A stretch of DNA of 63,816 bases, taken from NCBI GenBank assembly GCA_025454315.1, contig JALOOP010000012.1:1-63816 (forward strand), read 5' to 3'. Origin of the DNA: Oculatellaceae cyanobacterium Prado106 (GTDB taxonomy: Bacteria > Cyanobacteriota > Cyanobacteriia > Elainellales > Elainellaceae). Shown here one piece after another: positions 44,746 to 61,893 of the stretch. Numbering within the stretch: the stretch's first letter is position 1; each line of letters opens with the position of its first letter. The position numbers were made by a program, and so were the translations under genes. Below the pieces are notes generated by a model. The model did not search any database. It was not told the origin of the DNA and saw nothing but the letters and a program-made list of their open reading frames with translations.

Positions 44746-44830
44746 GACGACTAGGCAGCACCTCTGCCCCCTCATCCTTGCTGATCATCAAAGGCCGTCC
44801 AAGCCCCCTGCATCTCGCCGAGGAAATTTT

Positions 44831-46045: not shown

Positions 46046-47235
46046 AAATTCTGATTGTCCGTCCCATGCCCGAGTTCAGCATGGATGTCTACGCGGAAGG
46101 GCTGATTGCAGGACTCAAGGCCGTTCGACCCGATTGGCAAATCCGCGTGATGGCACCAGAAGCTTACGATCGCACCAGTCGTTCTTGGTCAGTGCGCTGG
46201 CAAAAATACACTGAGCGATTCTGGCATTTCCCTCAACGGGTGAAGCAGCAGGCGATCGCATTCGGTGCCGATCTCATCCATATCTTGGATCACAGTGATG
46301 GTCATCTAGTTTACACGCTGCAATCAACGGGCATTCCCGTGGTGGCAACCTGTCATGATTTGATCAATTTCTTGTATCCCGAAAATCTCAAGGGTTCAGT
46401 CAAGCTGCCCTATGTCAGTGATGCGCTGTGGAAGCATTCGGTCAAAGGTTTACAGCAAGCCCATCGAGTGGTCACGGTTTCCCAACAGACGGCTCAAGAT
46501 GTGCGATCGATTTTGGGGATTGGGGGCGATCGCATCCAGGTCATCCCCAATGCCGTAGAACCGCTGTTTCAACCCCTGCCCAGTTCCGCAAAGCCAGATC
46601 TCCGACCGCATCATGGCATTTCTCCTGATGATTTCCTGTTGCTCAACGTCGGTTCCAACCATCCCCGCAAAAATCTCTCCACCCTCCTTCAGGCGATTCA
46701 GATATTGTGCGATCGCCATCTCCCCATCCATCTCCTCAAAGTCGGCGCAGACTTCACCCCCGACCAACAAACCCTGATCCAAACCCATCATTTACCCGTC
46801 ACTTCCGCAGGCCGTCCCGATCGCGCCACCCTCGTGCAATATTACAACGCCGCCGATCTCCTGGTCGCCCCCTCCACCCACGAAGGCTTCGGCATGACCC
46901 TCCTCGAAGCCATGGCCTGCGGCATCCCCATCGTCACCGCCAACCAATCTGCCCTCCCCGAAGTGATCGGCGAGGCCGGACTCCAGGTGAACCCCCAAGA
47001 TGCCAGCGCGATCGCCGATGCTATCCACCATCTCTACCAAGATACCGCCCTGCGATCGACCCTCCGCCAAAGGGGACTGCTGCGCGTTCGTGGCTTTACC
47101 TGGGATGCGATCGCCACCCAAATGGCACAACTCTATGAGCAGGTCTACCAGTCTCGCTCTAGACCCCATCCCGAACTCATTTACCACCGCAGAGACGCAG
47201 AGACGCAGAGAGAACCAGGGGAAATGCGGAGATAA
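46042..47235 (+). CDS. GT4-family glycosyltransferase with repeat-derived tail
   Basis: 397 residues from ATG 46042, overlapping the preceding gene by 4 bp. MKILIVRPMPEFSMDVYAEG begins the acceptor half; AHRVVTVSQQTAQDVRSILG, NVGSNHPRKNLSTLL and the E-x7-E motif in THEGFGMTLLEAMACG identify family 4. The last residues HRRDAETQREPGEMRR are encoded by a CGCAGAGA octamer array (47187-47212) that has invaded the 3' end and replaced the original stop. Confidence 0.9.
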   Translation: MKILIVRPMPEFSMDVYAEGLIAGLKAVRPDWQIRVMAPEAYDRTSRSWSVRWQKYTERFWHFPQRVKQQAIAFGADLIHILDHSDGHLVYTLQSTGIPVVATCHDLINFLYPENLKGSVKLPYVSDALWKHSVKGLQQAHRVVTVSQQTAQDVRSILGIGGDRIQVIPNAVEPLFQPLPSSAKPDLRPHHGISPDDFLLLNVGSNHPRKNLSTLLQAIQILCDRHLPIHLLKVGADFTPDQQTLIQTHHLPVTSAGRPDRATLVQYYNAADLLVAPSTHEGFGMTLLEAMACGIPIVTANQSALPEVIGEAGLQVNPQDASAIADAIHHLYQDTALRSTLRQRGLLRVRGFTWDAIATQMAQLYEQVYQSRSRPHPELIYHRRDAETQREPGEMRR

Positions 47236-47346
47236 GGAGACGAGGAATTGAGGAGACAGAGGCAAGACCTAAGTCCTTTCCCCTTTCCCCTTTCGCCCTT
47301 CCCCCACTCCCCACTCCCCACTCCCCACTCCCCACTCCCCTTCCCT
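47236..47346. repeat. CCCCTTT and CCCCACT arrays before a start codon
   Basis: CCCCTTT at about 47277-47300 then CCCCACT at 47302-47340, ending 6 bp before the ATG at 47347. Confidence 0.85.
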
Positions 47347-48573
47347 ATGAAAATCCTCATGTCTGCATATTCCTGCGAACCTGGACGAGGCTCAGAACCG
47401 GGCGTCGGGTGGAATATTGTGCGGGAAGTGGCGCGGCATCATGAGGTGTGGGTGTTGACTCGACCGGATGAGAGTGGGGATGCGATCGCCGCAGAACTCG
47501 CCCGCAATCCTGTGCCCAATCTTCATTTTGTCTACTTTACTCTGCCAATTTGGGGCGGGGGCTGGCGCTGGGGGCAGTCGGGGGCGATGCAGATCCATTA
47601 CTATCTGTGGCAAATTCAGGCGTATTTTGTGGCGCGTCGGTTGCATCAACAGCTTGGGTTCGATGTCGTTCACCATGTCACCTTTGTCAAATACTCTACG
47701 CCGAGTTTTTTATCGTTACTGCCCATTCCCTTTGTCTGGGGGCCGGTGGGTGGGGGAGAATCTGCGCCAGCCAGTTTTTGGCAAGATTTCAGTCTACGCG
47801 CCAAGGTCTACGAATATGCCCGAAGTCTAGTGCGAAAGGTGGGAGAACTCGATCCCTTCGTGCGAATCACGGGGCGGCGCAGTGCGATCGTCCGAGCCAC
47901 CACTCTGGATACGGCCAAACGCCTCTATCAACTGGGGATTCATCCCGTCGAGATTGCTCCAGAATCGGGCTTGTCGAATGAAGATATCGTGCAACTGGGG
48001 CAATGTCCCTTGCCGACAGCGGCTCCCCTGCGGTTCATTAGCATGGGACGGTTGTTGCATTGGAAAGGCTTCCATCTGGGCATTCGCGCCTTTGCCGCTG
48101 CCCAACTCCCCGAGGCCGAGTATTGGATTGTCGGAGATGGCCCGGAACAAGCGCGACTTCAGGCATTAGCAACGGAACTAGGCGTTGCGTCCCAGGTGAA
48201 ATTCTGGGGCAGATTACCCCGTGCCGCCACGCTCGAAAGATTGGCCGACTGCCATGTGCTGGTGCATCCCAGCCTGCATGATTCGGGCGGTTGGGTCTGT
48301 ATGGAAGCGATGGCCGCAGGACGACCTGTGCTATGTCTGAATCTGGGCGGACCAGCAGTGCAAATTACTGAACAAACAGGCATCAAGGTGGATGCGATCG
48401 CCCCTTCCCAAGCCGTTCAAGATCTTGCCCAAGCCATGATCCACTTGGCTCAACATCCCGAACAGGTGCAGCAAATGGGACAGGCAGGACGGCAGACCGT
48501 GCGACAGACCTTTAGTTGGCAAGTGCGGGGCGAAAGTCTGGCGAAATTGTACGAGGAGAGGGTGGGATGCTAA
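47347..48573 (+). CDS. GT4-family glycosyltransferase
   Basis: 408 residues from ATG 47347. MKILMSAYSCEPGRGSEPGV plus GWNIVREVARHHEVWVLTR is the glycine-rich acceptor-side loop of family 4; the donor side has SMGRLLHWKGFHLGIRAFA and LHDSGGWVCMEAMAAGRPV, in which the first Glu of the E-x7-E pair is replaced (Asp-Ser-Gly), though the second is kept. VWGPVGGGES is typical of a subgroup found in EPS clusters. Its end overlaps the start of the polymerase gene by 7 bp. Confidence 0.9.
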   Translation: MKILMSAYSCEPGRGSEPGVGWNIVREVARHHEVWVLTRPDESGDAIAAELARNPVPNLHFVYFTLPIWGGGWRWGQSGAMQIHYYLWQIQAYFVARRLHQQLGFDVVHHVTFVKYSTPSFLSLLPIPFVWGPVGGGESAPASFWQDFSLRAKVYEYARSLVRKVGELDPFVRITGRRSAIVRATTLDTAKRLYQLGIHPVEIAPESGLSNEDIVQLGQCPLPTAAPLRFISMGRLLHWKGFHLGIRAFAAAQLPEAEYWIVGDGPEQARLQALATELGVASQVKFWGRLPRAATLERLADCHVLVHPSLHDSGGWVCMEAMAAGRPVLCLNLGGPAVQITEQTGIKVDAIAPSQAVQDLAQAMIHLAQHPEQVQQMGQAGRQTVRQTFSWQVRGESLAKLYEERVGC

Positions 48574-49904
48574 ATTCGGTCAAAACGGCGGCTCAGCCCA
48601 ATCGTCAGTTGCTGCGAAGCTCGACGCTGATTATCGTCACCTTTGCGATCGCCTTCTACCCCCGCATCCTAGCCGCAGCGGGTGTGCCTGCGGTGGTCAA
48701 TTTTCTACATTTTGCCTGTATTTTTCTGCTGCTGGGGTTTGTGCTGCCCCGAATTCGATCGCGGCTGCATGTCAAGCTTTCGACGCAGTTGTTGTATGGC
48801 TTGTATGCGCTATTTTTGGCGATCGCCACCAGTGCCTTCTGGAATGATGCTGGCATTATCAATATCATTCTCAGTTTTTTGCTGCTGAGCGAACCCTTTA
48901 TTATGCTGCTGGCGATCGTCGGCATTCGCATGACGCCCAGTAGCACGCAACGCTTCCACGGCTGGTTATTGGCCGCTGGTTTAATCAATCTTTTGTTTGC
49001 CTATATCCAATATTTCGTCTTGAAGTTGCAGGTTGTAGGCGGCCCCGATGCCATTAAGGGCGTATTTCTAAACCAGGGCGCAGGTCACCATGTCGGCGGA
49101 GCGGTCGCTTTGACCTCAGCCGTGTATGTCCTTAATCATCCCGCGTTCGGGGCACTATGGCTACGGGCGTTCCTGGCGCTCTCGTTTCTACCCCAGACCT
49201 TTCCCATGTCCGATTCCAAGCAGGTAGTCGCCGTATTTCTCGGGTCAATGCTGCTGCTCACCCTCACCAAAATTCAAAAAATCGGAACTGCGATCAAGTA
49301 CTTGGTCATCAGCGTGCTGGCAATTTTTGGGGTGTATTGGGCGATCGTCACGCTGTTCCCCGGTTTAGGATACTGGCTCAACTTTTCCCTGCTGGTTTCC
49401 AGTTTCCAAGCCAAATTCTCCGTCTTCTCCATCATTCACGATGCCTTCACCTCTCCCTTCAACTGGCTATTTGGGCTAGGTCCCGGACATACCATTGGCC
49501 GCCTAGGCTGGCTGATTCCAGACTATGCCCATATCCTCAAACCCCTCGGTGTCACCGCCACTCAAGTCACGGCTGACATCTTCACCGAAAATGACACCAA
49601 TCATTTGACCAACGCCATCACAGGTTCCAGCATGTTCTCCCTGACCTTCTCTTGGGCAGGGATTTGGGGCGATCTGGGTCTATTTGGCACAGGTGCCTAT
49701 CTCTACCTCTGGTGGGTCACCTGGCGACACATCTGCGTCGATAACCTATCAAAATTCCTGGTACTCAACATGCTCCTATTCGGAGCCATTTTCTCCTGGC
49801 TCGAAGAACCAGGCTACATGCTCTTCGTCGTCAGCATCATCGGCCTCCAGTGGCAATCCCGACAGCAAAAACTCGCTGAACAATCCGCTGAATCCTATCC
49901 CTGA
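48567..49904 (+). CDS. O-antigen ligase/Wzy-like polysaccharide polymerase
   Basis: 445 residues from ATG 48567, overlapping the preceding gene. A polytopic membrane protein with about 10-12 hydrophobic segments (TLIIVTFAIAFYPRILAAAG, FACIFLLLGFVLP, LGSMLLLTLTKI, YLVISVLAIFGVYWAIVTLF) and a larger external loop around residues 270-360 (LFGLGPGHTIGRLGWLIPDY). This topology is that of Wzy polymerases and O-antigen ligases, which join lipid-linked repeat units in the periplasm. Sequence alone does not separate polymerase from ligase. Confidence 0.75.
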   Translation: MLNSVKTAAQPNRQLLRSSTLIIVTFAIAFYPRILAAAGVPAVVNFLHFACIFLLLGFVLPRIRSRLHVKLSTQLLYGLYALFLAIATSAFWNDAGIINIILSFLLLSEPFIMLLAIVGIRMTPSSTQRFHGWLLAAGLINLLFAYIQYFVLKLQVVGGPDAIKGVFLNQGAGHHVGGAVALTSAVYVLNHPAFGALWLRAFLALSFLPQTFPMSDSKQVVAVFLGSMLLLTLTKIQKIGTAIKYLVISVLAIFGVYWAIVTLFPGLGYWLNFSLLVSSFQAKFSVFSIIHDAFTSPFNWLFGLGPGHTIGRLGWLIPDYAHILKPLGVTATQVTADIFTENDTNHLTNAITGSSMFSLTFSWAGIWGDLGLFGTGAYLYLWWVTWRHICVDNLSKFLVLNMLLFGAIFSWLEEPGYMLFVVSIIGLQWQSRQQKLAEQSAESYP

Positions 49905-49949
49905 AGGCAAAAGGGGAACACAGATGCACACAGATAAACACAGATGAAT

Positions 49950-50166
49950 GGGGATGGGTGGATGGATGGGTGGATGGATGGGTGGATGAGTGGATGGGTG
50001 GATGGGTGTTTCAAGGGATACCTTCTCTTAAACACAAGAAATTCTATAAGAGAGAGTTTTTTGTGTTGCGTATAAGTCCACCCTCCCTCACCCATCCACC
50101 CATCCACCCTGTCACCCATCCACTCCCCACTCCCTACTCCCTACTCCCTACTCCCCACTCCCTCCC
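49950..50166. repeat. GGTGGATG octamers and CCCTACT heptamers
   Basis: GGTGGATG units at 49955-50008, the opposite-strand CCATCCAC at 50092-50125, and CCCCACT/CCCTACT at 50127-50164, ending 3-5 bp before the next ATG. Between them is an AT-rich stretch with an imperfect hairpin (AAACACAAGAAATTC...TTTTTTGTGTT). Confidence 0.85.
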
Positions 50167-50168
50167 CC

Positions 50169-51344
50169 ATGCGTATCCTCTTCGCCCACAATCGCTATCA
50201 ACTCGCTGCCGGAGAAGAGATGGTGGTGCAGGCAGAAATGGCGTTGCTTCAGGAGCAGGGAAATGCAGTCAGTTTATTCGAGGTGGATAATCGATCGATT
50301 CAGAGTCCCTGGAGCAAATTAAAAGCCGCAGCGGCATCGGTGTATTCCTGGAGTGCGCGACAAGAATTATGCCAACGAATTGAGCAGTTTAGGCCAGATG
50401 TGGTTCATGTGCATAACTTTTTCCCCTTGCTGTCTCCCTCCGTCTACGATGCCTGTCAGATGATGGAGGTGCCCGTAGTGCAGACTTTGCACAACTATCG
50501 TCTCACCTGTGTCAACGGCAAGTTATTTCGGGATGGACAAATCTGCGAATCCTGCTTAGGTCAATCCATTCCCTGGGCTGGGATACGCCAGGGTTGTTAC
50601 CGGGATTCGGTAGTGGAGAGTGCTGCGGTGGGGGTAATGATTGGGGTGCACCAGATGCGGAGGACTTGGGGCGATCGCGTCAACGCCTTCATTGCCCTAA
50701 CCCCCTTCCAGAAAGCAAAAATGACGCAAGCCGGATTACCCCCTGAGCGAATCCATGTCAAACCCAACTTTCTCTTTGATCCCCAATTACCCCCGCGTCA
50801 AACCCCTGGAGACTATCTTTTGTACGTCGGGCGACTCTGGTCAGAAAAGGGCATTCAAACCTTAGTTGATGCCTATCTTCAGCATGACATTTCAATGCCT
50901 CTAAAGATTGTGGGGGAAGGGATCATGCGGGAGAATTTAGAGCAGCAAGTACAGCGGGCGGGCAAGGCGATCGAATTTTTGGGATGGCGCAGTAAGCCCG
51001 AGGTTTTAGCATTGATGCAAAATGCCCGCGCGCTGGTGTTTCCCTCGGTGTGGTATGAAACCTTTGGGCTGACGATGATTGAAGCCTTTGCCTGTCGCGT
51101 CCCGGTGATTGCGTCTCGGTTGGGCGGAATTGCAGAAATTGTCCAGTCGGGTGAAACTGGGCTATTGTTTGAAGCGGGGAATGGGGCAGAACTGGCGGAG
51201 CAGTTAGAGTGGGCGATCGCGCATCCCCAAGCAATGCAGGTCATGGGACAAAACGCAAGACAGGTCTACGAGAACCGATATTCTCCTACAGCAAACTACG
51301 AACATCTCGTGAGAATTTACGAAAAAGTGGGTTCTATGAATTGA
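50169..51344 (+). CDS. GT4-family glycosyltransferase
   Basis: 391 residues from ATG 50169. Acceptor half: HNRYQLAAGEEMVVQAEMAL, VVHVHNFFPLLSP, QTLHNYRLTCVNGKLFRDGQ, and a Cys pair region ICESCLGQS that marks this subgroup. Donor half: LLYVGRLWSEKGIQTLVDAY and E-x7-E in WYETFGLTMIEAFACR. Last gene of the glycosyltransferase run; it converges with the lasso-peptide operon, 56 bp away. Probable role: adding a sugar to the EPS repeat unit. Confidence 0.9.
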   Translation: MRILFAHNRYQLAAGEEMVVQAEMALLQEQGNAVSLFEVDNRSIQSPWSKLKAAAASVYSWSARQELCQRIEQFRPDVVHVHNFFPLLSPSVYDACQMMEVPVVQTLHNYRLTCVNGKLFRDGQICESCLGQSIPWAGIRQGCYRDSVVESAAVGVMIGVHQMRRTWGDRVNAFIALTPFQKAKMTQAGLPPERIHVKPNFLFDPQLPPRQTPGDYLLYVGRLWSEKGIQTLVDAYLQHDISMPLKIVGEGIMRENLEQQVQRAGKAIEFLGWRSKPEVLALMQNARALVFPSVWYETFGLTMIEAFACRVPVIASRLGGIAEIVQSGETGLLFEAGNGAELAEQLEWAIAHPQAMQVMGQNARQVYENRYSPTANYEHLVRIYEKVGSMN

Positions 51345-51400: not shown

Positions 51401-52531
51401 TTACTCCATCAACTCTAACCGATCCCCCTTCACCAACCACCCCAAAAACGACTGCAAATACAAAGCCTTCTCCTGAATCCGATCGCTCACCCGCATCTGA
51501 TACACCGTCTTGCCCAAAAACTGATCCGACACCCGAGTTTCATACATCAATTGCTCATAGGTTTGCCGCATCAAGACCATCACGGCAGCATCGGACTGCA
51601 TGACTCGTAACACTTCCGGGGGAACGGGCGCATCTAGTATTTTATGTGCCAACAGAACCCCTAAAAAGAGCATTTTCCGACAGATGAGGACTTGCGATCG
51701 CCCCATCACCCCATCCCAGTCCAACGCCGCGCCCCGCAACCGCAGAATCTCCGCCACATCACACAGCCAGGTCAACCGCTCCCAGCGATGCCGCGAACCA
51801 TGAACACAAAGAATCGGTAGCCAATCCTCTAGGGATAAATTGACGAACGGCACGCCCTTAAATGTAGACGGCTCCAGATGTTCCCAAAAATGCCGGGGTT
51901 CAATAATCGAAGTACAGCGCGGCGTAATTCGCCAATGCAACTCTAGGGCAACGCTTCTATCGGCTCGAATGAAGGTGTAATTATGCTCATCATTGGATTG
52001 CAAAAAAGCGATCTCTTCGGCTTCTGTCATCGGATCTTTGGGGAAGTACCCTTGCTCGATGAGCAGTTGCTTAGCTGGCAAAATATCCTGTTCCTGTAGC
52101 ACAATATCTAAATCACAATATTGACGAAACGCAACATCTCCATAAACTGTGTCAGCTAGCACAGGCCCTTTATAAGGAACCGCCGCCATCTGATGATCGG
52201 CAAACAGCTTCAAAAATTTGAGCAACTCGGCGGTAAATAATAAACTCCGCTGAGCATTGGTTGAAAAGAGGTGCCGCAAGGATTGCAGTGTTTCTGTTGG
52301 TACCAGGCTTGGGCAAGTTTGGTTGAGGCTACGATAAAGCAAGGGCATTACCCCATGCCGATAGGCTAATTGCACCAAATACGGCCAGTCGAGATCCTGC
52401 TGCACCAGGCTCACGATCTTTTCCTGTTGTGTGGCATCCAATTGCACTCGTGAGCAGTAGACCAATAGCTCATGTTCAAGGCGCAGGGGGCGATTGACGG
52501 CATTCATGGAAGGCTTGAAGAAGAGTTTCAT
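51401..52531 (-). CDS. Nucleotidyltransferase-family protein of the lasso cluster
   Basis: 376 residues, start ATG 52531. It matches the nucleotidyltransferase family (Pfam NTP_transf_5) often found in lasso-peptide and other RiPP clusters: AAVPYKGPVLADTVYG, then YCDLDIVLQEQD with the paired Asp metal ligands, HNYTFIRADRSVALELHW, and a helical C-terminal half. A tailoring or regulatory role in the cluster is assumed from association; the reaction is not known. It is the last gene of the operon, 48 bp after the exporter gene. Confidence 0.82.
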   Translation of the reverse strand: MKLFFKPSMNAVNRPLRLEHELLVYCSRVQLDATQQEKIVSLVQQDLDWPYLVQLAYRHGVMPLLYRSLNQTCPSLVPTETLQSLRHLFSTNAQRSLLFTAELLKFLKLFADHQMAAVPYKGPVLADTVYGDVAFRQYCDLDIVLQEQDILPAKQLLIEQGYFPKDPMTEAEEIAFLQSNDEHNYTFIRADRSVALELHWRITPRCTSIIEPRHFWEHLEPSTFKGVPFVNLSLEDWLPILCVHGSRHRWERLTWLCDVAEILRLRGAALDWDGVMGRSQVLICRKMLFLGVLLAHKILDAPVPPEVLRVMQSDAAVMVLMRQTYEQLMYETRVSDQFLGKTVYQMRVSDRIQEKALYLQSFLGWLVKGDRLELME

Positions 52532-52579
52532 AGCAAAAGTTATCGGGAGAATGAAGGCGGCTTAAACTTAATTCTGGAA

Positions 52580-54487
52580 TCAGTTTTGGGCTGTAACTTG
52601 GGGCAGTGGAACTCGCGGTTCGGTTTCAGAGGATGCAACAGGACTATGCATCTGGGTATTCCAGGACTCTGCGTAAAAGCCTCCCTGAGCCACCAACTCA
52701 TCGTGATGCCCGGATTCCACGACTTTGCCATCCCGCATCACAAAGATCAGATCGGCGCGCATGGCTAAGGTGAAGCGATGGGTGATGACGATCGCCGTTT
52801 TTCCCTCAGCCAGCGATCGAAACCGCTCCAACCAATCAAACTCAGCCCAAGGGTCCATGGCGCTGGTGGGTTCGTCCAGAATCATTAAATTAGCTTTTCT
52901 CAGGAAGGCGCGGGCTAGCGCGAGTCGCTGCCACTGTCCGCCGCTGAGTTCGGTGCCGCCAGGAAACCACTTTCCCAGTAGGGTTTCATACCCTTGGGAA
53001 AGGCTCATAATTTTGTCATGGATACCAGCATTGCGTGCGGCTTGTTCCCTATCAACCGGGGAAGGATTGGCGGCAATATCTCCCAAGGCTAGGTTTTCTG
53101 CTGCTGAGACATAGTAGGGCATTGGGTTCTGGAACAAAACGGTAATCATCCGTCGCAAATCGGCCACGGCAAAGGAGCGCAAGTCCATGTCATCCAGTTC
53201 AATGGCTCCCGATTGGGGATCATAGAACCGACACAGCAACTTAATTAGCGTACTTTTGCCTGCCCCGTTGTCCCCCACAATGGCCACAATCTTTCCGGCT
53301 GGAATCATCAGATTGAACGACTCCAGGACAGCCTCTGGACTCCCTGGATAGCGAAACGTCACTTGACGAAAACGAATGCCTGTTTGAAGCGCTGCTGGAA
53401 TCGGATGAGGATGGGGCGGATCAACCAGTTCGGGTTGTAGGTTGAGAAATTCAAAAAGATTGCCAATAAAGAGACTGTTTTTATAAATCTGTCCAAAATT
53501 GCCCAACAAAGACTTGATGATCGATTGGCCTCGGTTAAACGCCTGATAAAACAGCGCTAAGTCACCGAGAGTCAGCAATCCGAGCAAAACCTGTCGCCCC
53601 ATCCAGGCTAGAGCCGCCGCCGCAATCAGGAGGGCGATCGCCCCTGCCAATAGACGACTCAGGGTCTGTGCCCGCAGCAGGTTCATCGTGTCATGCCGCA
53701 GTCGTTGTCGGATGCGTTGGTAGGCAGCTTGGAAAAATGTTCCGTAGTTGAATAATCGGAGTTCTGCCGCAACCCAACCGCTGGTCAACAAAACATCGTA
53801 GTAGTGTAATCGACGACGATCCATCGTCGTTCGCTGTGACCATTGGTATTGCCGCAGATTATGCTGTAGCGTGATATAAAAAGCAGGCAATGCACTGACA
53901 CAGAGCAAAATCGGCAGCCAATAGCCATAGGGTAGCAAAATGGCCGCCATGGCCAACAGCGTAATCCCATTCTGCAACAGGCTCCCCATGTTTTCGAGGA
54001 GCGCCAGGGGGCGGGTGGTGGCTCCTTCTCGGGCTTGTTCCAGGCGATCTTGATCATCGGAAGACTCGTAGCAACCATAATCAATCCGGGCAGACTGCTG
54101 ATGCACTAATCCGCTAATGTAATCCTGCACTAGCTCAGATTGCGCTGTGCGAACCCATTCGCTCATGCCCTGAACCACTTCGCTCAAGATAATTACGGCG
54201 GCCATCAGTGCGACTGGCACTAGAATAATCTGAATACTTTGCCAGGAAACGCCGATTCCCGCTGTCACCAAGAGTTGATCCACCAGCGTGCGGGTGAGAT
54301 AGACCGTTGCACCGGGCAAAAGCCCTTGCACGATGAGGAGTAAAATCCAGGCGATCGTCCAGCGTTGCGAGGCGGCCCAAATTAATTGAAAGGTTTTGGG
54401 CAGGTAGGAAAATTGTGCAAGCGGATGCTGAATTTTGGAGAGAATTTTGGTGCTCCAGAAATTAGCAAAGATTCGAGGGAATAACAT
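52580..54487 (-). CDS. Lasso peptide ABC exporter (D protein)
   Basis: 635 residues: a fused half-transporter. Six membrane spans at about 40-330 (WTIAWILLLIVQGLLPGATV, ILVPVALMAAVIILSEVV, LLGLLTLGDLALFYQ) then a nucleotide-binding domain: Walker A VGDNGAGKSTLIKLL, signature LSGGQWQRLALARAF, Walker B LMILDEPTSAMD, H-loop VITHRF. No N-terminal C39 peptidase is present, as expected for lasso clusters where B2 removes the leader. It should export the mature peptide and give self-protection, as McjD does for microcin J25. Confidence 0.88.
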   Translation of the reverse strand: MLFPRIFANFWSTKILSKIQHPLAQFSYLPKTFQLIWAASQRWTIAWILLLIVQGLLPGATVYLTRTLVDQLLVTAGIGVSWQSIQIILVPVALMAAVIILSEVVQGMSEWVRTAQSELVQDYISGLVHQQSARIDYGCYESSDDQDRLEQAREGATTRPLALLENMGSLLQNGITLLAMAAILLPYGYWLPILLCVSALPAFYITLQHNLRQYQWSQRTTMDRRRLHYYDVLLTSGWVAAELRLFNYGTFFQAAYQRIRQRLRHDTMNLLRAQTLSRLLAGAIALLIAAAALAWMGRQVLLGLLTLGDLALFYQAFNRGQSIIKSLLGNFGQIYKNSLFIGNLFEFLNLQPELVDPPHPHPIPAALQTGIRFRQVTFRYPGSPEAVLESFNLMIPAGKIVAIVGDNGAGKSTLIKLLCRFYDPQSGAIELDDMDLRSFAVADLRRMITVLFQNPMPYYVSAAENLALGDIAANPSPVDREQAARNAGIHDKIMSLSQGYETLLGKWFPGGTELSGGQWQRLALARAFLRKANLMILDEPTSAMDPWAEFDWLERFRSLAEGKTAIVITHRFTLAMRADLIFVMRDGKVVESGHHDELVAQGGFYAESWNTQMHSPVASSETEPRVPLPQVTAQN

Positions 54488-54525
54488 CGCAGAACACTCC
54501 TGATGCTGACTGGGAAATCAAAGAT

Positions 54526-55470
54526 TTAGCAAGGGCTTCGCAAATGCTCCTCCAATCTTTGAGCCGTTTCACTAAGTTGCGAGAGATCTCTGGGACGCAG
54601 TAACTGCCAGACCGCGACTTGTTGTGCCACTTGAGTCAGTTTCAAAAAATGATCAGCGCGATCGCCCTCCTGCAACAACTCCGCACCAAACCGGGTGATA
54701 TAAGAATTTCGCATTAATGCCAGCAAAACTTCTTGGGGCGACATTCGCCGAATTTCGATCGCATCGCCCAATCCCAAAACAAAAATATGCTGAAGCGGGA
54801 CTGGACTCGGATCAAATGCGTCTGAAAGGCGACAGTCTCGTTTGTCGAGATGGGGAACCAGGGTTGGAAAATCATCAAGACAGTACCCCAAGGAAGTCAC
54901 GGCATCTGTCCAAAGTTTCAGTTGAGGAAAGGCCGGAATGACCTGTTGCGTGGTTCCAGTCGCCATGAGCGGCACGACATCATCAGATAACAAGCGATGT
55001 CCGCGCTTGCAGAGGGTGGCGGCGATCGTCGATTTGCCCCAGCCCTTGTCTCCCACAAAGAGAACCGCACGGTCTTCAACGGCGATCGCACTCGCATGTA
55101 AGATAAAATGCCCCCGTTGATGCAACAGCACCCCAAGAGCCGCTCCTAAAATAAACAGTCGTAACCGACCCGCATCAGCGTCAGGAACCCGATCCACGAT
55201 GATTTCCCGCCCATTCCGAATCAAAAGCGTGCCAACACTCTCCCAGTAAAGATACATGCCTTCAGCCGTGAGTTGAGAGCCGTGAAAACAGGATGTATCG
55301 ATGGGATTCGTTAGCGCCTCCAAGCGAATTGTGGCATCCACCTGATCGACAGGACTCACGACTAACTCAGGGAGCGGAATCTCAGAACGGATATGCAGAC
55401 CATAGGCCCTGTAGCAAATGGTCGCTCCAGATGGCGCAGAGGGAGTCATTGAGAGCAGAGGAGTAATCAT
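54526..55470 (-). CDS. HPr-kinase-like lasso tailoring kinase
   Basis: 314 residues. Central Walker A GDKGWGKSTIAATL (about 140-153), preceded by HFILHASAIAVEDRAVLFVG and followed by RGHRLLSDDVVPL with the HPr-kinase-type Asp pair; ends in helices. N-terminal third (GLHIRSEIPLPEL) is a beta-rich module usual for this subgroup. In paeninodin-type clusters such kinases phosphorylate the C-terminal Ser side chain of the precursor. The precursor here ends in Ser, consistent with that role. Start ATG 55470; 258 bp after the precursor gene. Confidence 0.85.
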   Translation of the reverse strand: MITPLLSMTPSAPSGATICYRAYGLHIRSEIPLPELVVSPVDQVDATIRLEALTNPIDTSCFHGSQLTAEGMYLYWESVGTLLIRNGREIIVDRVPDADAGRLRLFILGAALGVLLHQRGHFILHASAIAVEDRAVLFVGDKGWGKSTIAATLCKRGHRLLSDDVVPLMATGTTQQVIPAFPQLKLWTDAVTSLGYCLDDFPTLVPHLDKRDCRLSDAFDPSPVPLQHIFVLGLGDAIEIRRMSPQEVLLALMRNSYITRFGAELLQEGDRADHFLKLTQVAQQVAVWQLLRPRDLSQLSETAQRLEEHLRSPC

Positions 55471-55613
55471 AGCAAAGGCCGGATCATGGGCGAAATATAA
55501 ACGACGGTGAAGTACCAGGGGGAAGCAAATTTGTTGAGGCTACACGACAAGACGGCAACCCCAACAAACCTAGATCCATCATGGCAACCCTCCATCAAGG
55601 TGAGGATGACGCA

Positions 55614-55678
55614 GGTAGGGTAGAAGGCTGATGAAATGCATCAGTTCCCTAAAGTTCTGAGATTTCACCAGCCCTACC
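55614..55678 (-). terminator. Hairpin between precursor and kinase genes
   Basis: Three stacked helices: GGTAG/CTACC, GGCT/AGCC and GAAAT/ATTTC, with a 7-nt bulge and a 3x3 internal loop; the loop is 24 nt. There is no T-tract on the transcribed strand. A partial terminator or mRNA stabiliser after the precursor gene is the likely role. The rest of 55471-55728 has no gene. Confidence 0.5.
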
Positions 55679-55728
55679 GCCCCTGCGAACCTACTCATCA
55701 TGGGATATCGGATGACACGATGGGCAAC

Positions 55729-55866
55729 CTATGAGGTAATGTCGTTGATGTTGGTGACAGTAGTACCTCTGGGTACATCGGTTCTGCTTCCACCACCCGC
55801 CTGGGTAATGGTTTCAACATTACCGTGAACCATCAGTTCAGGTTTTTGGTAAAGACGCTTAGACAT
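55729..55866 (-). CDS. Lasso peptide precursor (A)
   Basis: 45 residues from ATG 55866, preceded by AAGGAGAAAACC, the clearest ribosome site in the cluster (a 63-residue reading from 55920 lacks one). Leader 1-22 (55801-55866) has Y6-Q-K-P9-E-L11, the YxxPxL motif bound by the RRE of B1, and Thr21 at position -2. The predicted core (55732-55800) is 23 residues: ring segment AGGGSRTD, tail VPRGTTVTNINDITS. Ala1 would form an isopeptide with Asp8, giving an 8-residue ring. Bulky plugs are scarce; Arg11, Val15 and Ile18/Ile21 are candidates. The C-terminal Ser23 is a possible phosphorylation site. Position between cyclase and kinase genes supports the call; alternative Gly start with Asp7 is less likely. 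Confidence 0.87.
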   Translation of the reverse strand: MSKRLYQKPELMVHGNVETITQAGGGSRTDVPRGTTVTNINDITS

Positions 55867-55970
55867 GGTTTTCTCCTTAAATGTAAGTGAACTCGACAGA
55901 ACCAAGAGAGGTTCATCCATACAGCTATCGGAAACCGATTATTCCAAAGTAGCTGTGCTGTCGGATGCCA

Positions 55971-57995
55971 TCATGTGGACTGACAACCGACAGAAGAGCT
56001 ATTTGAGTCTTGAATTGAGTCTTGAACCGTTGTCCGTAAGGGTTGCTCGATCATCGGCTCCTTATCGGTTGACATGCACCCTAATGCGGTTTGCTCCAGC
56101 CACAGCGACAGATTCATCGCTTGCCAAAGATTGGACACATCACTGTCGTGGAAGGTCTGATTCAAAAAACGTTCACCGGTAAGCCGGAGCCGACCAAAAT
56201 TGAGGTAGGAAGCACTTTTCCACGGATAGTCCCAAAATCCTGCCAGGCGATCGCGCTCATAGGCCAAAAAACTATAGTCAAAACCAAACCCCATATTGGC
56301 CTTTCCTTTTCGCCATTGCACCGACTCCGGTAGAATTCCAGCCATCGCTTGACGCATGACGAGTCTGGTCCAGCCCTGCCCCATCTTTTGTTCAGGGGGA
56401 ATCGCCAAACAAAACTCAATCAGTCGCTTATCCCAAAATGGAAATCGGAGTTCAATCGAGAATGCAGCAGCAGCATGATCAAGATTTTCCAGAGTGTGAG
56501 GCATCACACCTCGCACCAGGTTGTAGTAGTGTTCGGCCTTAGCCGCAGATAGATCCTGAGGAATGGAAATGAGGTTCTGTTGACGACGAGTTTCCAACTG
56601 CAAACGTTGAATAAAGTCAGGGTGAATCGTATCATCCCAGGCAATGGAGTTTTGTGGGGCTGCGGGTTTTAGCCAACGCCAGATCTTGTTCACCGCTCGC
56701 TGAACTTTATGAAGGGGTGGAATTTTGGCGATCGCACCTCTGACCTTAGAGCGCCACAGAATCTGCCAAAACATCCCTCGAAACTTTGGGTTAAAATGTT
56801 CTGTCAACCCTCGAATTTCTTGATAAAGCCGCAGCCATTGCCTTGCCTGAAGCAGATCCTTGAGGTACGCCGTGCCATGAGACACCGTGCTATCCCCATC
56901 AAAGCCATCCAAAATAACTCTCGTGTTGCATCCTTGAGCAACTTTGTACAGACTCCAATTGAGGTAGAGGTTGTAGGCCGAGAGCGGCTGATCCTGGTGC
57001 CACATCACGCGGTCTAGGTCGATCAGAGGGCTAATGCGATCGCCATGAATATCATGCGATGCCAAATTTTCCTGCTCCAGCACCGCATGGATGTAGGGTC
57101 GCTCATCACATTCAGGCACCTGCTCAAACAGAGCCGAAAACGTGGAGAGTTTTTGTCCAGCCAGCAAACGGCTAGCCACGCAGGTAATCGACGAGGAGTC
57201 CAGGCCACCGCTCAGCATGGAACCGACGGGCAACGCACTTCTCAACCGACAACGCACGGCTTCGGTAAAAATTTTACGAAACTCCTCAGCGTATTGCTCC
57301 GCAGTCTCAAACTGTAAGCTCTGATAGGGGTTGAGTTGCCAATAGAGATTCGTTTGCAGGCTATCCGCGCAAACGGTGAGCGTATGGGCAGGCGGCAGAC
57401 GGAAAATATCTTGATAAAAGGTGATGGATGTATCGTCAAACTCGGTCAGGAGATAATTGGCAACGCGCGCTTCGTTGAGTTCTCGGGGGACGCTGGCGAT
57501 CGCCAACAGCGCCTTAATCTCAGACGCAAAAACGAAAACCTGATCTGTACAGTGGTAATAAAACGGCTTCACCCCAAAATGATCTCGGGCACAGAACATT
57601 TGTTGTTTATGCTGATCCCAAATCGCAAACGCAAAATCTCCCAACAAATGTTCTGGACAAGCCTCCTGCCATTTCTCATAGGCCGCCAAAATCAAATCGC
57701 TATCCGTAATCTTTTCCACGGGCGCTGTCAACCCCAGCTCCGCAATCAACTCATCTCGATTATCAATTCGGGCATCTGCGGTAAGAACATAGGATGACTG
57801 CACCAGCGGCTGCTTTTCCAATAAAGACTCGGGCGTTGTCCACAGCATCTGATGCCCCAACCCGACACAGCAGCCTTCTATCCAAGTGCCCGAACCATCC
57901 CCGCCCCGATGCGATAGACAAGTCATCATGTCCGACATCTCTGCGGCGGTGACTGAACGGCGATCGCGATAAAAAAGTCCTAAAATACCACTCAT
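55971..57995 (-). CDS. Lasso cyclase (C), asparagine-synthetase-like
   Basis: 674 residues. N-terminal glutaminase-like domain and C-terminal ATP-pyrophosphatase domain as in asparagine synthetase B. The protein starts MSGILGLFY: the Cys2 nucleophile of glutaminase is Ser, so it should not use glutamine, as expected for a lasso cyclase. PP-loop motif LPVGSMLSGGLDSSSITC (about 240-258) activates the ring Asp as acyl-AMP, to be attacked by the core N-terminus. Further AsnB-like parts are LPDGDSTVSH-like FDGDSTVSHG and IELRFPFWDKRLIEF. Its ATG overlaps the B2 stop by 4 bp (ATGA). Confidence 0.92.
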   Translation of the reverse strand: MSGILGLFYRDRRSVTAAEMSDMMTCLSHRGGDGSGTWIEGCCVGLGHQMLWTTPESLLEKQPLVQSSYVLTADARIDNRDELIAELGLTAPVEKITDSDLILAAYEKWQEACPEHLLGDFAFAIWDQHKQQMFCARDHFGVKPFYYHCTDQVFVFASEIKALLAIASVPRELNEARVANYLLTEFDDTSITFYQDIFRLPPAHTLTVCADSLQTNLYWQLNPYQSLQFETAEQYAEEFRKIFTEAVRCRLRSALPVGSMLSGGLDSSSITCVASRLLAGQKLSTFSALFEQVPECDERPYIHAVLEQENLASHDIHGDRISPLIDLDRVMWHQDQPLSAYNLYLNWSLYKVAQGCNTRVILDGFDGDSTVSHGTAYLKDLLQARQWLRLYQEIRGLTEHFNPKFRGMFWQILWRSKVRGAIAKIPPLHKVQRAVNKIWRWLKPAAPQNSIAWDDTIHPDFIQRLQLETRRQQNLISIPQDLSAAKAEHYYNLVRGVMPHTLENLDHAAAAFSIELRFPFWDKRLIEFCLAIPPEQKMGQGWTRLVMRQAMAGILPESVQWRKGKANMGFGFDYSFLAYERDRLAGFWDYPWKSASYLNFGRLRLTGERFLNQTFHDSDVSNLWQAMNLSLWLEQTALGCMSTDKEPMIEQPLRTTVQDSIQDSNSSSVGCQST

Positions 57996-58543
57996 CGTTG
58001 AACTCCTTCCAGCGATGGAAGTGTGACATAACGCGGCAGATCGGGCAGATTCCCAATCAAGACCTTACCCTGGTCTTCCAGCCAAGCATGAGCCTCTAGT
58101 TGGCCTGCGGGGGATTTTGCAACCCCAATTCGCAGGTGGGGATCATAGCCTTGTCCATTGAGCATCACTTTGGCCGTCAAAGCCCTGGCTAAACATTTGG
58201 CTCCTCCCGGCATATATCGGGTGCTGACATTCACTCCCCAAATGATCTGGGAGATCGAAACCTGGGGTGCTGCGACAGGATTCGATCGCATTGAAGCATC
58301 AGATGGGAACCGGGTTAAACGAGAATCAGTCTGGTCAACATGAACGGATGAATTCACTGGGCAACAATCCGCATCACGCGAAGCAACCTTAGAAAATCGA
58401 TCCAGCCCCTTCAGCAAAACGCGAAAGGGAAGCAACCACAGCCCGACTCGAATCGCCAATAGCAACAAGAAGGTCGTCAGGAAAAGTCTGCGATCGCCCC
58501 AAGACATCCTCCACAGAACCTTGCCCTTACGCAGCGCTTGCAT
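57992..58543 (-). CDS. Lasso leader peptidase (B2), transglutaminase-like
   Basis: 183 residues, start ATG 58543 with GGTGGAG eight bases upstream. N-terminal hydrophobic helix (LFLTTFLLLLAIRVGLWLLP), a variable linker, and the McjB-like cysteine-protease core: Cys in MPGGAKCLARALTAKVML, His in QLEAHAWLEDQG; the third (Asp) residue I cannot place with certainty, Asn in VLIGNLPDL being nearest. With B1 it removes the leader from the precursor before cyclisation. It overlaps B1 by 17 bp and the cyclase by 4 bp. Confidence 0.88.
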   Translation of the reverse strand: MQALRKGKVLWRMSWGDRRLFLTTFLLLLAIRVGLWLLPFRVLLKGLDRFSKVASRDADCCPVNSSVHVDQTDSRLTRFPSDASMRSNPVAAPQVSISQIIWGVNVSTRYMPGGAKCLARALTAKVMLNGQGYDPHLRIGVAKSPAGQLEAHAWLEDQGKVLIGNLPDLPRYVTLPSLEGVQR

Positions 58544-58853
58544 GGCGAATCTCCACCAGCCCAGCCGCCTGCAAGTCTTGTAAAAGGTTTAAGAGATCCT
58601 GGTCGCACACCTCAGCCTCGACCTCATATTCCTGCTGAATGGTTTGTCGGATGGCGGCGATCGAAGTGGACTGCTGCAACAATTGCCAAATCCGGGCACC
58701 GACTTCATTCAGGCCATAATAAACGCCGGATCTTAAGTCTAAAATCACCGCCTCACCCGCCAAGTCAGAAGAAATCTGCTCAGGCGCAACGGTCACGCTC
58801 ATCGAATCTAATAATGTTGAATCAATTTCTAAAAGGTTCATGGTATTTGGCAT
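58527..58853 (-). CDS. PqqD-like RiPP recognition element (B1)
   Basis: 108 residues from ATG 58853, chosen for the AGGTGAG seven bases upstream; GTG 58865 and ATG 58841 are alternatives. The fold is PqqD-like: VTVAPEQISSDLAGEAVILD, LRSGVYYGLNEVGARIWQLL, IRQTIQQEYEVEAEVCDQDL, LNLLQDLQAAGLVEI. Such RREs bind the YxxPxL motif of the leader and deliver it to the protease. First gene of the operon. Confidence 0.9.
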   Translation of the reverse strand: MPNTMNLLEIDSTLLDSMSVTVAPEQISSDLAGEAVILDLRSGVYYGLNEVGARIWQLLQQSTSIAAIRQTIQQEYEVEAEVCDQDLLNLLQDLQAAGLVEIRHASAA

Positions 58854-60036
58854 AATGACGCTCACCTAAACACGAGTCGGGGTTTACAAAGGTGGGTTTG
58901 CGGTAACTGCCTCTAGCTCGGTTCGACTAAAGTCGATACTACAAACACAGACCTCAAGCACAACAGACGAAACACACTCAAGGGAAAAGAACGAAACAGG
59001 AGGAAACATCAGGACAAAACGCTTCAGGCAACCCGAAAATTTCTGACCTGGAATCCTAATCTCGAATCCTAACTTTGAACCAGTTGGGTACTCATGGTGA
59101 CTGCGGTCAACCAGCAGTGTTGTAAGGTGCATTGCTGCATAGGAGACAGTGCAGCAGGCTGTTCTATGAATGGCACTGTCGATGACGACGGCTGATCACG
59201 GAGAAGCAGAAGATACAAATAATACATGGAATTAGCTAAAACACTGAAACATCTTGGAGGATTGGGCGATCGCTCCAGAAAAGAAGGCTCGACTGAATCT
59301 CCAACAAACGGAGGTAGCATCTTGCAAGATTCACGCAGGACTGATGATTGTCCAATTCTGTTCAACCGAGTTCAACTAGGTTATGACCCGGCTCAGTAGA
59401 TGCATCGAAGCTTCAGGGGTGAAACCTGAAGTAATTTGCTATACCCCCTCTTGCGATAGAGGACAGGTTCAATCCGGATGCTTTTCAGAAGGCCACTGAA
59501 AATACATGGGGATTTCATCTGAATTTCGTAAAATATTGCGGAAACGGCTGGTAGAAGCGCCTGAACGAAGATCAAAAGAGGTCAAATAGGTAGATGCCGT
59601 TTGTAAAGAATAAAACAATACCAGGTTCAGTACGGCGGCAAAAGTCTCAGCAGAGAGAAATCCAAACGAGTCTTGATTCTGGATTGCTTGGCACGGCTCA
59701 GACTTGGCATGGCTAAGGCACAGCTAAGACATCGCTAAGACATAGATGAGTTCTGTCTCAAACTTAGCGAACTCAAACTAAGCCAGAGTGCCTAAACTTA
59801 CTCGTCACGATAGGTAAAAAATGAGGCAACGGATATACCCCATAGGGATGATTCACGCAAACTTCAAAGAAGCTTGATGTCCTGCGACAAAATTGTGAAG
59901 TAGAGATAGAGAGTTTTTCAAAACTTCCTGACCTTTTTGCTGGGTCTATGTAAGGGGAGCTACGGGCAATATGTCCCAGAAGTTTCCTGTAAGCTTTGTC
60001 CCATCAGACTTTTGTAATCGGCGGAGGAAAATTGCA
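58854..60036. promoter_or_regulatory. Divergent promoter region of lasso operon and EPS gene
   Basis: About 1.2 kb without a credible gene between the B1 gene (-) and the GumC-like gene (+). AT-content is raised at 59385-59600. Around 59697-59750 there are near-repeated words GGCAYGGCTAAGGCACAGC and GCTAAGACATCGCTAAGACAT. I could not define boxes or a riboswitch. Confidence 0.5.
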
Positions 60037-61893
60037 ATGATGGAAGCAACCTTAATTGCGCTACCGTTTTTGCCCGATCTCGATCAATCTGGATCATCGG
60101 CAGAACAGTCCGCTTCAGCTTCAGCTTCGTCAGCATCAGGCCGTCGATTAAAATCGCTTCCCACTCAGCGGCAGGCGCTCCAAGTTGTACCCTCGCTGTC
60201 CCAAGCCCGACCCAAAGTTGCTCAGCCCAAAGTTGCTCAGCCCAAAGTTGCTCAGCCCAAAGTTGCTCAGCCAACCCGCGCCACATCTCAAGCTGCTACG
60301 GCTCAAGCTGCTACCCCATCTCGCTCTCGTCCCACGCCCTTCCCGGATGAGGCATGGCAATCCGCTGTCCCAGCAACCAAAACCATGGATGCTCATCAGC
60401 GCGTCACGGTGATTGCCGGAGTAGCGATCGCCGTCACCGCAGGCACCCTCACCCAGGCGCTTAACCAAGCTCCCGTCTACGAAGGCTCCTTCCAGCTTTC
60501 CGCCACGCCAATTCAGCAAACCAATGCCCAATCCTCTAGCGCTACGGCCACGGTTCAAAATAACATCACGCCGCCCAGCCTGATCAGCGACAGCGAAATC
60601 CAAATCCTGGAAAGCCCCCGCATCCTCGATCCCGTCGTCCGGCAACTGCAAACCCAACTGCCCCAACTCGACTATCAGACCCTAGTCGAAAACCTCACCA
60701 TTACCCAACAGGGCGATCGCACCCTGCAAATCCACTACCGCGATGTCGATCCCCAGCGCGTCAAACTCGTCCTGGCTCAACTCACCCAAGCCTTCATCGA
60801 CTACGGTTCAGAGTGCAAAACTAGCACCTGCAAAGGCAAAGAGCATATTAACGAGCAAGTTCCTCAAGCCCAGGAGCGCATCTATCGCCTCCGCGCCGAA
60901 ATTCAAAAACTCCATCAGCAGCACGGCATCACCAACCTGCAAGCCCAACTCAAACTCCTCGACACCCGCACCCTCGACCTCGACAAGCAATCCGCCCAAC
61001 TGCAACAGCAACGCGCTGAAGCCGAGCAAATGTACGGTCAGTTGCAGCAGCGCATGGCACTGAAACCGGAAGAGGCGATCGCCACCCAACTCCTCAACCA
61101 AAGCACCCGCTACCGCACCCTCCTCGTCCAGTTCCAAACCCTGGATAACCGGTTTGCCAGCGGCTTTGGCGATGTCGGTCTAACGGGTGAAAATCAACTC
61201 CAGATCCAAAACCTACAAGTCCAACACCAAGCCCTCCTCCAACAACTCACCCAAGAAGCCCAGCTCATCCTCCGTCAATACCTCAGCAACCCCACCTCTA
61301 ACCTGCAAAACCCCATCTTCCAGGATCAAATCAACCTGCCCCTCCTGCAACAATCCATCGTCACCACCCACACCATCGAGGTCATGCGGGTTCGACAAAA
61401 CACCATTGGTCTAGCCCAACAAAGCATTGAACAACAGCGCAGCCAACTGATCGCCGTCCTCAGCCGCTACGACCAACTCAAACAAAAACTCGACAGCGAA
61501 ACTGCCATCCTCCAGCAATACTTCAACAAACTCGACGCCCTCCAAAAACAATCCCCCAGCACCAACCTGGCACTCACCCTAACCACCGCCCCCGAACTAC
61601 TCAGCGACAACTGGGGCAACCCCCAAGCGATCGTCCCCGATCTCCAGCGCAATCTAGGCATTGGCGCAATCATCGGCCTACTTCTGGGTGTCGGCGCAAC
61701 GGCTGCTCTCGATCGCCGCAAAGACGAGGAAACTGCGATACGTGCTAGCGCACAAGCTAGCGCCACCGCCCCCCACCCCACCCGCAACGGAATGGCGATC
61801 GACTTTGCCAATCTCCCGGTCGATCTCCTAGTCAGCAAAGCCAAAAACCTTGCCGACACCCGTCTCCGCGAACAATTCACCCAAGTCGCCTAA
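60037..61893 (+). CDS. GumC/Wzz-like EPS chain-length protein without kinase domain
   Basis: 618 residues from ATG 60037, which has GGAGGAAA upstream; ATG 59971 would add 22 residues and also has a weak site. After a Ser/Ala-rich N-terminus with KVAQP repeats, TM1 lies near 119-139 (VTVIAGVAIAVTAGTL), followed by Wzz-type domain (ISDSEIQILESPRILDPVV, TITQQGDRTLQIHYRDVDPQ), a long periplasmic coiled coil (about 250-530), and TM2 near 565-585 (LGIGAIIGLLLGVGATAALD). Such polysaccharide co-polymerases set chain length with Wzy. No Walker motifs follow, so the tyrosine-kinase part is absent or elsewhere. Confidence 0.85.
   Translation: MMEATLIALPFLPDLDQSGSSAEQSASASASSASGRRLKSLPTQRQALQVVPSLSQARPKVAQPKVAQPKVAQPKVAQPTRATSQAATAQAATPSRSRPTPFPDEAWQSAVPATKTMDAHQRVTVIAGVAIAVTAGTLTQALNQAPVYEGSFQLSATPIQQTNAQSSSATATVQNNITPPSLISDSEIQILESPRILDPVVRQLQTQLPQLDYQTLVENLTITQQGDRTLQIHYRDVDPQRVKLVLAQLTQAFIDYGSECKTSTCKGKEHINEQVPQAQERIYRLRAEIQKLHQQHGITNLQAQLKLLDTRTLDLDKQSAQLQQQRAEAEQMYGQLQQRMALKPEEAIATQLLNQSTRYRTLLVQFQTLDNRFASGFGDVGLTGENQLQIQNLQVQHQALLQQLTQEAQLILRQYLSNPTSNLQNPIFQDQINLPLLQQSIVTTHTIEVMRVRQNTIGLAQQSIEQQRSQLIAVLSRYDQLKQKLDSETAILQQYFNKLDALQKQSPSTNLALTLTTAPELLSDNWGNPQAIVPDLQRNLGIGAIIGLLLGVGATAALDRRKDEETAIRASAQASATAPHPTRNGMAIDFANLPVDLLVSKAKNLADTRLREQFTQVA
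60214..60273 (+). repeat. 15-bp array encoding KVAQP
   Basis: Four units AAAGTTGCTCAGCCM at 60214, 60229, 60244 and 60259, nearly identical at DNA level, hence recent. Confidence 0.95.

Follow-up and report, generated by a model that had tools for sequence, protein, structure and literature searches.

What product is encoded by the run of seven genes on the minus strand of contig JALOOP010000012.1 from Oculatellaceae cyanobacterium Prado106, at positions 51401–58853 of the 63,816-nucleotide (nt) stretch analyzed here (the window)? The genes form a complete lasso-peptide cluster in the order B1-B2-C-A-K-D-N, and the product is probably a lasso peptide that, like paeninodin and pseudomycoidin, carries a phosphate on its C-terminal Ser, perhaps with a sugar at the same place. 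The cluster is a further example of a type already known; NCBI models of cyanobacterial lasso proteins exist.

Gene content and conservation of the cluster

An original prediction, made from the sequence, had listed seven co-oriented genes: B1, B2, C, A, a kinase, an exporter and a nucleotidyltransferase. All seven were found, with family matches for each (Table 1). B1 matched the PqqD family PF05402 (E 5.9e-22, 78.2 bits; cut-off 23.4) and scored 75.9 bits with the lasso-specific model NF033536, just below the cut-off of 80; its closest solved structures included TbiB1 (5v1u, 3.7e-10) and a lasso PqqD chaperone (9x90, 6.8e-11). The B1 family and structure scans used a 101-residue frame from 58832, seven residues shorter than the protein starting at 58853; the ATG at 58853, with AGGTGA 8 nt upstream, is most likely the true start, in agreement with the original prediction. 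B2 scored 102.5 bits with NF033537 (cut-off 33) and matched PF13471 (1.1e-21), and C scored 814 bits with NF033535 lass_lactam_cya (cut-off 525). The domain check that had been proposed was therefore passed by B1, B2 and C together, B2 and C above curated NCBI cut-offs and B1 through the Pfam PqqD model. Alignment of B2 revealed a conserved Cys in a CLARA/CLTQA-type motif and a conserved His in (E/K)AHAW, which we take to be catalytic. B2 also has an insertion of about 27 residues (approximately residues 53–79; window 58307–58387) after an N-terminal hydrophobic segment, absent from the homologs in loci L189 and L190 (numbers with L designate compared loci) and from the other aligned relatives; a sequence search for solved-structure relatives of B2 returned one match, at chance level. 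The SGGLDSS motif of C was invariant across 13 aligned cyanobacterial C proteins, that of the window among them. D matched PF00005 (4.2e-30, 105.6 bits; cut-off 25) and resembles MsbA-type models, falling below the cut-off of every one among the best 25 of 198 matched models. The B1 and B2 reading frames share 17 nt and those of B2 and C share 4 nt, and the remaining genes are separated by spacers of 104 (C-A), 258 (A-K), 38 (K-D) and 48 nt (D-N).

The gene set is far beyond a chance assembly, since its content and order are found again in other genomes and kin show purifying selection on the genes. A kinase match was present in 8 of 36 genomes of the window's order (the window's counted; all 36 belong to one family), and two of these eight, represented by loci L189 and L190, carry all seven genes in the order of the window. 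Their precursors are an identical 48-residue protein despite 8 differences in 144 nt, all silent, and dN/dS between the two loci ranged from 0.064 to 0.142 over the six non-precursor genes, calculated on stop-to-stop frames that include a few residues upstream of the true starts. The corresponding comparison of the window with L190 was excluded because silent sites were saturated in four of the six genes.

Table 1. Features of the lasso-peptide cluster in the window (RiPP, ribosomally synthesized and post-translationally modified peptide; PDB, Protein Data Bank)
Feature	Position	Strand	Length	Basis
B1, PqqD-like discrete RiPP recognition element	58527..58853	-	108 residues from ATG	PF05402, NF033536, PDB relatives
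B2, leader peptidase (transglutaminase-like)	57992..58543	-	183 residues	NF033537, PF13471
C, AsnB-like macrolactam (isopeptide-forming) synthetase	55971..57995	-	674 residues	NF033535
A, precursor	55729..55866	-	45 residues	NF033528
A-K intergenic region, two long hairpins	55471..55728	-		Folding against shuffles
K, HPr-kinase-like putative peptide kinase	54526..55470	-	314 residues	PF07475, residues, AlphaFold2 model
D, MsbA-like ABC exporter, membrane domain fused to ATPase	52580..54487	-		PF00005
N, nucleotidyltransferase-family protein	51401..52531	-		PF14907

Precursor and predicted core

The precursor A, preceded by an AAGGAG ribosome site, consists of the leader MSKRLYQKPELMVHGNVETITQ and the core AGGGSRTDVPRGTTVTNINDITS, and scored 35.9 bits with NF033528 lasso_cyano (cut-off 33). 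It combines the features of a lasso precursor: a YxxPxLxxxG leader motif (here YQKPELMVHG), Thr at position -2, and an Asp or Glu at core positions 7–9 (here Asp8). Because of Thr(-2) and the penultimate-Thr rule for leader cleavage (PMC10368454), cleavage is expected after TITQ, yielding AGGGSRTDVPRGTTVTNINDITS. This 23-residue core is predicted to close through an Ala1-Asp8 isopeptide bond into an 8-residue ring; a core starting one residue later, at Gly, would mean a seven-residue ring. The core ends in Ser and also holds Ser5 and several Thr, and the near relatives of A have a DVPxGTP-like stretch and the C-terminal Ser in common.

The kinase and its descent

K matched PF07475 Hpr_kinase_C (1.7e-9, 37.9 bits; cut-off 33.3) and did not reach the cut-off of TIGR00679 for bona fide HPr(Ser) kinase/phosphatase (33.8 bits; cut-off 240). 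The key residues described for lasso kinases are a His, the P-loop Gly, Lys and Ser, and two Asp (PMC10368454, PMC9266682). All are held by K, as H125, a GxxGxGKS P-loop with Lys146 and Ser147, and D163/D164, so that it has the intact His-Lys-Asp-Asp of a paeninodin-type HprK-like kinase. When 81 kinases from cyclase-bearing loci were aligned, 79–81 sequences kept the His, the Lys, the Ser, both Asp and two of the three Gly, and 75 kept the first P-loop Gly. An AlphaFold2 model of K (23 input sequences; mean predicted local distance difference test (pLDDT) score 91.5) had PDB matches among phosphoenolpyruvate carboxykinases (PEPCKs; E down to 6.1e-8) and HPr kinases (E down to 1.6e-6); K as modeled has the HprK/PEPCK fold expected for the lasso kinase family.

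The 81 kinases were placed in a quick tree with Shimodaira-Hasegawa-like approximate likelihood ratio test (SH-aLRT) support only, no bootstrap. The window K formed a three-member clade with L189 and L190 (SH-aLRT 100), nested in a six-member clade (SH-aLRT 99) that adds L152, L032 and L033, the L032 kinase being incomplete at a contig end. The precursors of this clade are all Ser-ending, so that the C-terminal Ser of paeninodin-type cores is kept in six of six members. Phosphorylation of the window peptide is made more likely by this shared ending, together with the Ser at the end of its own core and the intact residues of K.

We then compared precursor endings over the whole tree, after 11 of the 81 loci were dropped for having no parsed precursor and four small open reading frames (ORFs) judged spurious were removed by eye. 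The 70 remaining clusters comprised 27 with Ser-ending precursors only, 41 with none and 2 mixed, the mixed ones being excluded from counts of change. The Ser or not-Ser state changed 10 times among the 68 unmixed clusters, compared with 15–27 times in 300 shuffles, and 4 times among the 33 cyanobacterial clusters (shuffle minimum 6), showing that precursor ending follows kinase descent. This pattern alone does not single out a phosphorylated residue, as the whole cluster may be co-inherited. Within the kinases, the Tyr of an NSY/FSY motif was present in 21 of 27 Ser-type kinases and 8 of 41 others, and a short insert after it in 16 of 27 and 1 of 41, respectively; 7 of the 16 insert-bearing kinases are close Mesorhizobium-type relatives. 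The motif in the window K is RNSYITRFG (approximately residues 254–262), and a clade associated with long-tailed precursors, described below, mostly has HSR/HTR at that place. Motif and insert, as seen in these alignments, are a possible specificity determinant. K did not group with the Bacillota kinase, as a member of the paeninodin subfamily would; it lies in a cyanobacterial clade. L196 from Priestia is the sole Bacillota kinase in the tree, and its long branch makes its placement unsure. K would thus appear to work like paeninodin kinases, with no claim that it belongs to their subfamily.

The nucleotidyltransferase-family protein

N matched PF14907 NTP_transf_5 (3.1e-59, 201 bits; cut-off 31.2), and K121, G122, R136, D140 and D142 were invariant over 20 aligned sequences. 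A sequence search gave no solved-structure relatives of N. Foldseek comparison of its structure model (pLDDT 87.7) with the PDB gave weak matches only, none with E < 0.001. Those ranked highest among the matches at a probability close to 1 were a fungal nucleotidyltransferase-like protein, LnuA, ANT(2'')-Ia and FKRP. The model fits the nucleotidyltransferase superfamily, and these matches do not distinguish transfer of a nucleoside monophosphate (NMP), a sugar or a sugar-phosphate. N lies beside K, as in pseudomycoidin-type clusters, and is presumed to be the counterpart of PsmN and BsfN. It is an optional cluster part, since it is present in just 8 of the 19 cyanobacterial clusters selected by the NF033535 cut-off (see below).

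Proposed pathway and alternatives

A pathway can be proposed on the basis of the observed genes and families, the intact catalytic residues, the conservation and selection in kin, and the match between K clade and C-terminal Ser. B1 would bind the YxxPxL motif in the leader of A and present A to the other enzymes. K, assisted by B1, would phosphorylate the hydroxyl of the C-terminal Ser23 of the linear precursor with ATP as donor; B2 would cleave after TQ; and C would close the ring around the threaded tail by coupling the amine of Ala1 to the side chain of Asp8, to form a lasso of 23 residues, eight of them in the ring. N would then act on the phosphate, where it most likely attaches a hexose or some other sugar, and D would export the finished product. 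The chemical steps, cut site, ring size, step order and role of N in this scheme are all suggested by the gene families and by precedent. PadeK/ThcoK/SyanK-type kinases are described as modifying the C-terminal Ser while the precursor is linear, and not in the folded lasso (PMC9266682); PsmK places a phosphate on the C-terminal Ser, where PsmN attaches one or two hexoses (PMC9266682, PMC8498205). In the bsf system, B1 accelerates kinase and peptidase alike (PMC10368454).

The original interpretation, a tailored and possibly phosphorylated lasso peptide, thus proved right in outline, and it gained from the C-terminal Ser, the intact K residues and the all-Ser K clade. It had overlooked the pseudomycoidin precedent for a kinase combined with a nucleotidyltransferase, because of which a phospho-hexose should be looked for, and not the proposed +80 Da alone. 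The exact prediction computed for the core is a lasso of 2270.125 Da, with forms at +79.966 and +162.053 Da. As [M+H]+, the predicted values are 2271.132 for the lasso, 2351.099 for its phosphorylated form, and 2513.152 and 2675.204 once one or two hexoses are added; a core beginning at Gly would give 2200.095 unmodified.

Several points weigh against modification at the C-terminal Ser, or against the later steps. The residue modified by BsfK is core Ser3, so the last residue is not the necessary target of an HprK-like kinase (PMC10368454); the window core also contains Ser5 and several Thr. K is 29% identical to the Priestia L196 paeninodin-family kinase and groups apart from it, and the 41 of 70 kinase clusters without a Ser-ending precursor mean that kinase presence alone does not predict a C-terminal Ser. 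N is found in 8 of the 19 cut-off-selected cyanobacterial clusters, and its chemistry leans on one in vivo precedent, for which a review leaves room for an indirect route (PMC9266682).

The likeliest alternative concerns N, which may be a true nucleotidyltransferase, placing AMP or another NMP on the phosphate or the peptide, or a LicD/FKRP-like sugar-phosphate transferase, instead of a hexosyltransferase; we give this a substantial chance, somewhat short of even. Its weak structural matches include the antibiotic nucleotidylyltransferases LnuA and ANT(2'')-Ia as well as FKRP solved with CDP-ribitol, and a review allows for nucleotidylation followed by glycosylation by the host (PMC9266682). 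However, the reported in vivo product of PsmN, the presumed counterpart of N, bears one or two hexoses (PMC9266682, PMC8498205). It is unlikely that the cluster, intact as it looks, is silent or cryptic and gives no product in ordinary growth. A sigma-70 promoter and terminator scan of the region showed no excess over shuffles (6 promoter-like matches, 9.5 expected), and the bsf cluster is reportedly silent under laboratory conditions (PMC10368454); the low dN/dS of six genes and the silent-only changes in A between L189 and L190 nevertheless argue that the product has been used over evolutionary time in kin. Least probable is phosphorylation by K of a ring or tail residue (Ser5 or a Thr), with the C-terminal Ser kept for another reason. 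In its favor, Ser3 is the BsfK site in a cluster that likewise includes a nucleotidyltransferase (PMC10368454), many K-bearing clusters lack a C-terminal Ser, and Ser5 is found in the window, L189, L190 and L032, which make up four of the six-member clade. Ser5 is, however, absent from L152 (QGGPPVRVD) and L033 (QGGPAFRVD), while all six members have the last Ser.

Comparison with known systems

Among the closest known systems is the psm cluster of pseudomycoidin, a phosphoglycosylated lasso peptide from Bacillus pseudomycoides, which likewise has an HprK-like kinase and a nucleotidyltransferase and a modified C-terminal Ser. The rest of its gene list presumably matches that of the window. In the Priestia locus L196, which served as the Bacillota stand-in for psm, the order is C-A-K-B1-B2-D, compared with B1-B2-C-A-K-D-N in the window. 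The paeninodin (pade), ThcoK and SyanK systems share an HprK-like kinase with His-Lys-Asp-Asp and a C-terminal Ser substrate; the window differs from paeninodin in its distant K, 29% identical to the Priestia kinase and placed elsewhere in the tree, and in adding N. The bsf cluster of Bradymonas sediminis has the same seven genes A, B1, B2, C, D, K and N, but there BsfK targets core Ser3 and BsfA has Ile(-2) and a C-terminal Asp, whereas the window precursor has Thr(-2) and a C-terminal Ser. The NF033528 and NF033535 families, whose cut-offs A and C of the window exceed, cover A and C only and are silent on K and N. Linear polyphosphorylated peptide (LPP) clusters of Bacillota are alike in having a discrete RiPP recognition element, an HprK-like kinase, a nucleoside triphosphate transferase and an MsbA-like exporter; they have no cyclase and use a signal-peptidase-like protease, in contrast to the window with its C and B2.

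Prevalence of kinase-bearing lasso clusters

The prevalence of such clusters was examined in 386 genomes of the phylum, with the NF033535 cut-off defining lasso cyclases. Cyclases above the cut-off were found at 19 places in 17 genomes, the window's included. Any match to NF033535 was present in 143 of the 386 genomes and 9 of 14 controls, no control exceeding the cut-off, and the matches below it are probably, for the most part, ordinary asparagine synthetases. All 19 cut-off-selected clusters had a same-strand kinase no more than 2.4 kb from the cyclase; within 8 kb, B1 was present in 18, B2 in 17, the exporter in 17 and an N homolog in 8, with some stretches ending at a contig edge. The commonness of such clusters in cyanobacteria had been missed in the original prediction.

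A second, hand-picked census comprised 37 cyanobacterial clusters in which C scored at least approximately 670 bits in a custom profile and had one or more further lasso genes beside it; a kinase was nearby on the same strand in 36, an exporter in 32 and N in 22. Six of these clusters (L189–L193 and L195) were found through K and are hence biased; without them, the kinase count is 30 of 31. In the sole census cluster without a kinase, L054, the sequence ends 539 nt past C. The census left out partnerless high-scoring C genes under the NCBI cut-off (for example L174, L175 and L177), the lower-scoring L159 and L162–L173, and the duplicates L154 (contig of L043) and L194 (of L064); L159 exceeds the NCBI cut-off once its pieces are summed and is counted within the 19. 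K is thus near-universal in cyanobacterial lasso clusters, and its presence beside all 19 cyclases means that phosphorylated lasso peptides may be common in the phylum.

Cyanobacterial lasso peptides were noted earlier (Tietz et al. 2017, as cited by PMC8600333 and PMC7533575). Among the literature matches listed, seen as titles and abstract openings of mostly non-subscription literature, there was no description of a phosphorylated or kinase-cluster lasso peptide from a cyanobacterium. Outside the phylum, K-bearing lasso clusters also occur in Rubrobacter, Mesorhizobium, Acidobacteria, Rhodothermales and three archaeal loci. The archaeal loci are L198 (Halopiger xanaduensis plasmid pHALXA01), L059 (Halosimplex salinum) and L044 (a Methanobacteriaceae metagenome-assembled genome), and their lasso-like clusters comprise B1, B2, C, K, D and N; L198 has a precursor-like ORF at 8920–9084, outside the listed features of its record. 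Euryarchaeota have previously been named among lasso sources.

A possible second kinase lineage with long-tailed precursors

The kinase tree also contains a clade of 19 (support 89), 18 of whose members are from cyanobacterial clusters; the precursors of these clusters are long-tailed and, apart from L061, lack a C-terminal Ser. Many of these precursors have a D-x-x-(L/F)FNG-like stretch after the ring. A [GD]S-x(1,2)-[DN] motif was found in the tails of 23 of 31 precursors, compared with a mean of 5.8 and a maximum of 12 in 1000 within-tail shuffles, a figure that overstates the evidence because the motif was chosen post hoc. This internal motif was present in all precursors of 14 of the 18 clusters (L035, L036, L037, L041, L042, L061, L143–L146, L148, L149, L192 and L195) and absent in L043, L142, L147 and L193. 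In L153 (7832–8613), which belongs to another clade, three precursors are found under one kinase, one ending in LTFS and two in LTFSGTF, which suggests internal-Ser phosphorylation or C-terminal trimming. We tentatively propose, while holding it less likely than not, that phosphopeptide synthesis is the general rule for cyanobacterial lasso clusters and that their kinases are split between C-terminal Ser and long-tail acceptors, the latter being phosphorylated at an internal site or at a Ser exposed by trimming. If this is true, the product of the window is a phosphorylated lasso peptide, perhaps with a sugar on the phosphate, from a phylum for which the literature search found none described. 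The long-tail kinase lineage is the part that a specialist might find new. Separately, one cyanobacterial cluster, L142, was seen to carry five precursor genes in tandem as well as an additional gene for a kinase (5767–7840, 11883–12953).

Flanking genes and the A-K gap

The window cluster is flanked by exopolysaccharide-like genes (43363–51344 and 59971–61893) encoding five group-1 glycosyltransferases and a Wzz-like protein, the latter at 24.4 bits, slightly under the Pfam cut-off of 25.5. The flanks of L190 comprise five ORFs of at least 200 residues, encoding an M23 peptidase, a photolyase, elongation factor G, a tRNA synthetase and one protein without a family. The seven genes look like a unit, because the L190 flanks differ from the exopolysaccharide-type flanks of the window. 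Some lasso and LPP clusters of Bacillota are reported to lie in capsular polysaccharide loci, and LPP clusters were discovered after related lasso clusters turned up in such loci. A conserved tie of the present cluster to its exopolysaccharide neighbors was considered and rejected, as none was seen in L190; the L189 contig is too short to judge. Searches by the C protein, K, the B2 family and the N family found no second lasso cluster elsewhere in the genome (assembly 92% complete, 609 contigs), and no known RNA families or tRNAs were detected in the window at the thresholds used.

The 258-nt gap between A and K folds into two long hairpins with a minimum free energy of -96.6 kcal/mol (z -3.62), and none of 200 shuffles was as stable. 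A transposon or repeat origin was rejected, since the only strong match in the genome was the query itself (next best E 0.7) and a repeat finder listed no direct or inverted repeats in the gap. Hairpins also lie directly 3' of A in the kin L189 (z -6.54) and L190 (z -2.48), and the sequence 3' of A folds better than shuffles in L152 (z -2.57), L034 (z -4.70) and L033 (z -4.22). It is a fair guess that the A-K hairpins act as an attenuator or processing element, so that A would be made in larger amounts than K-D-N.

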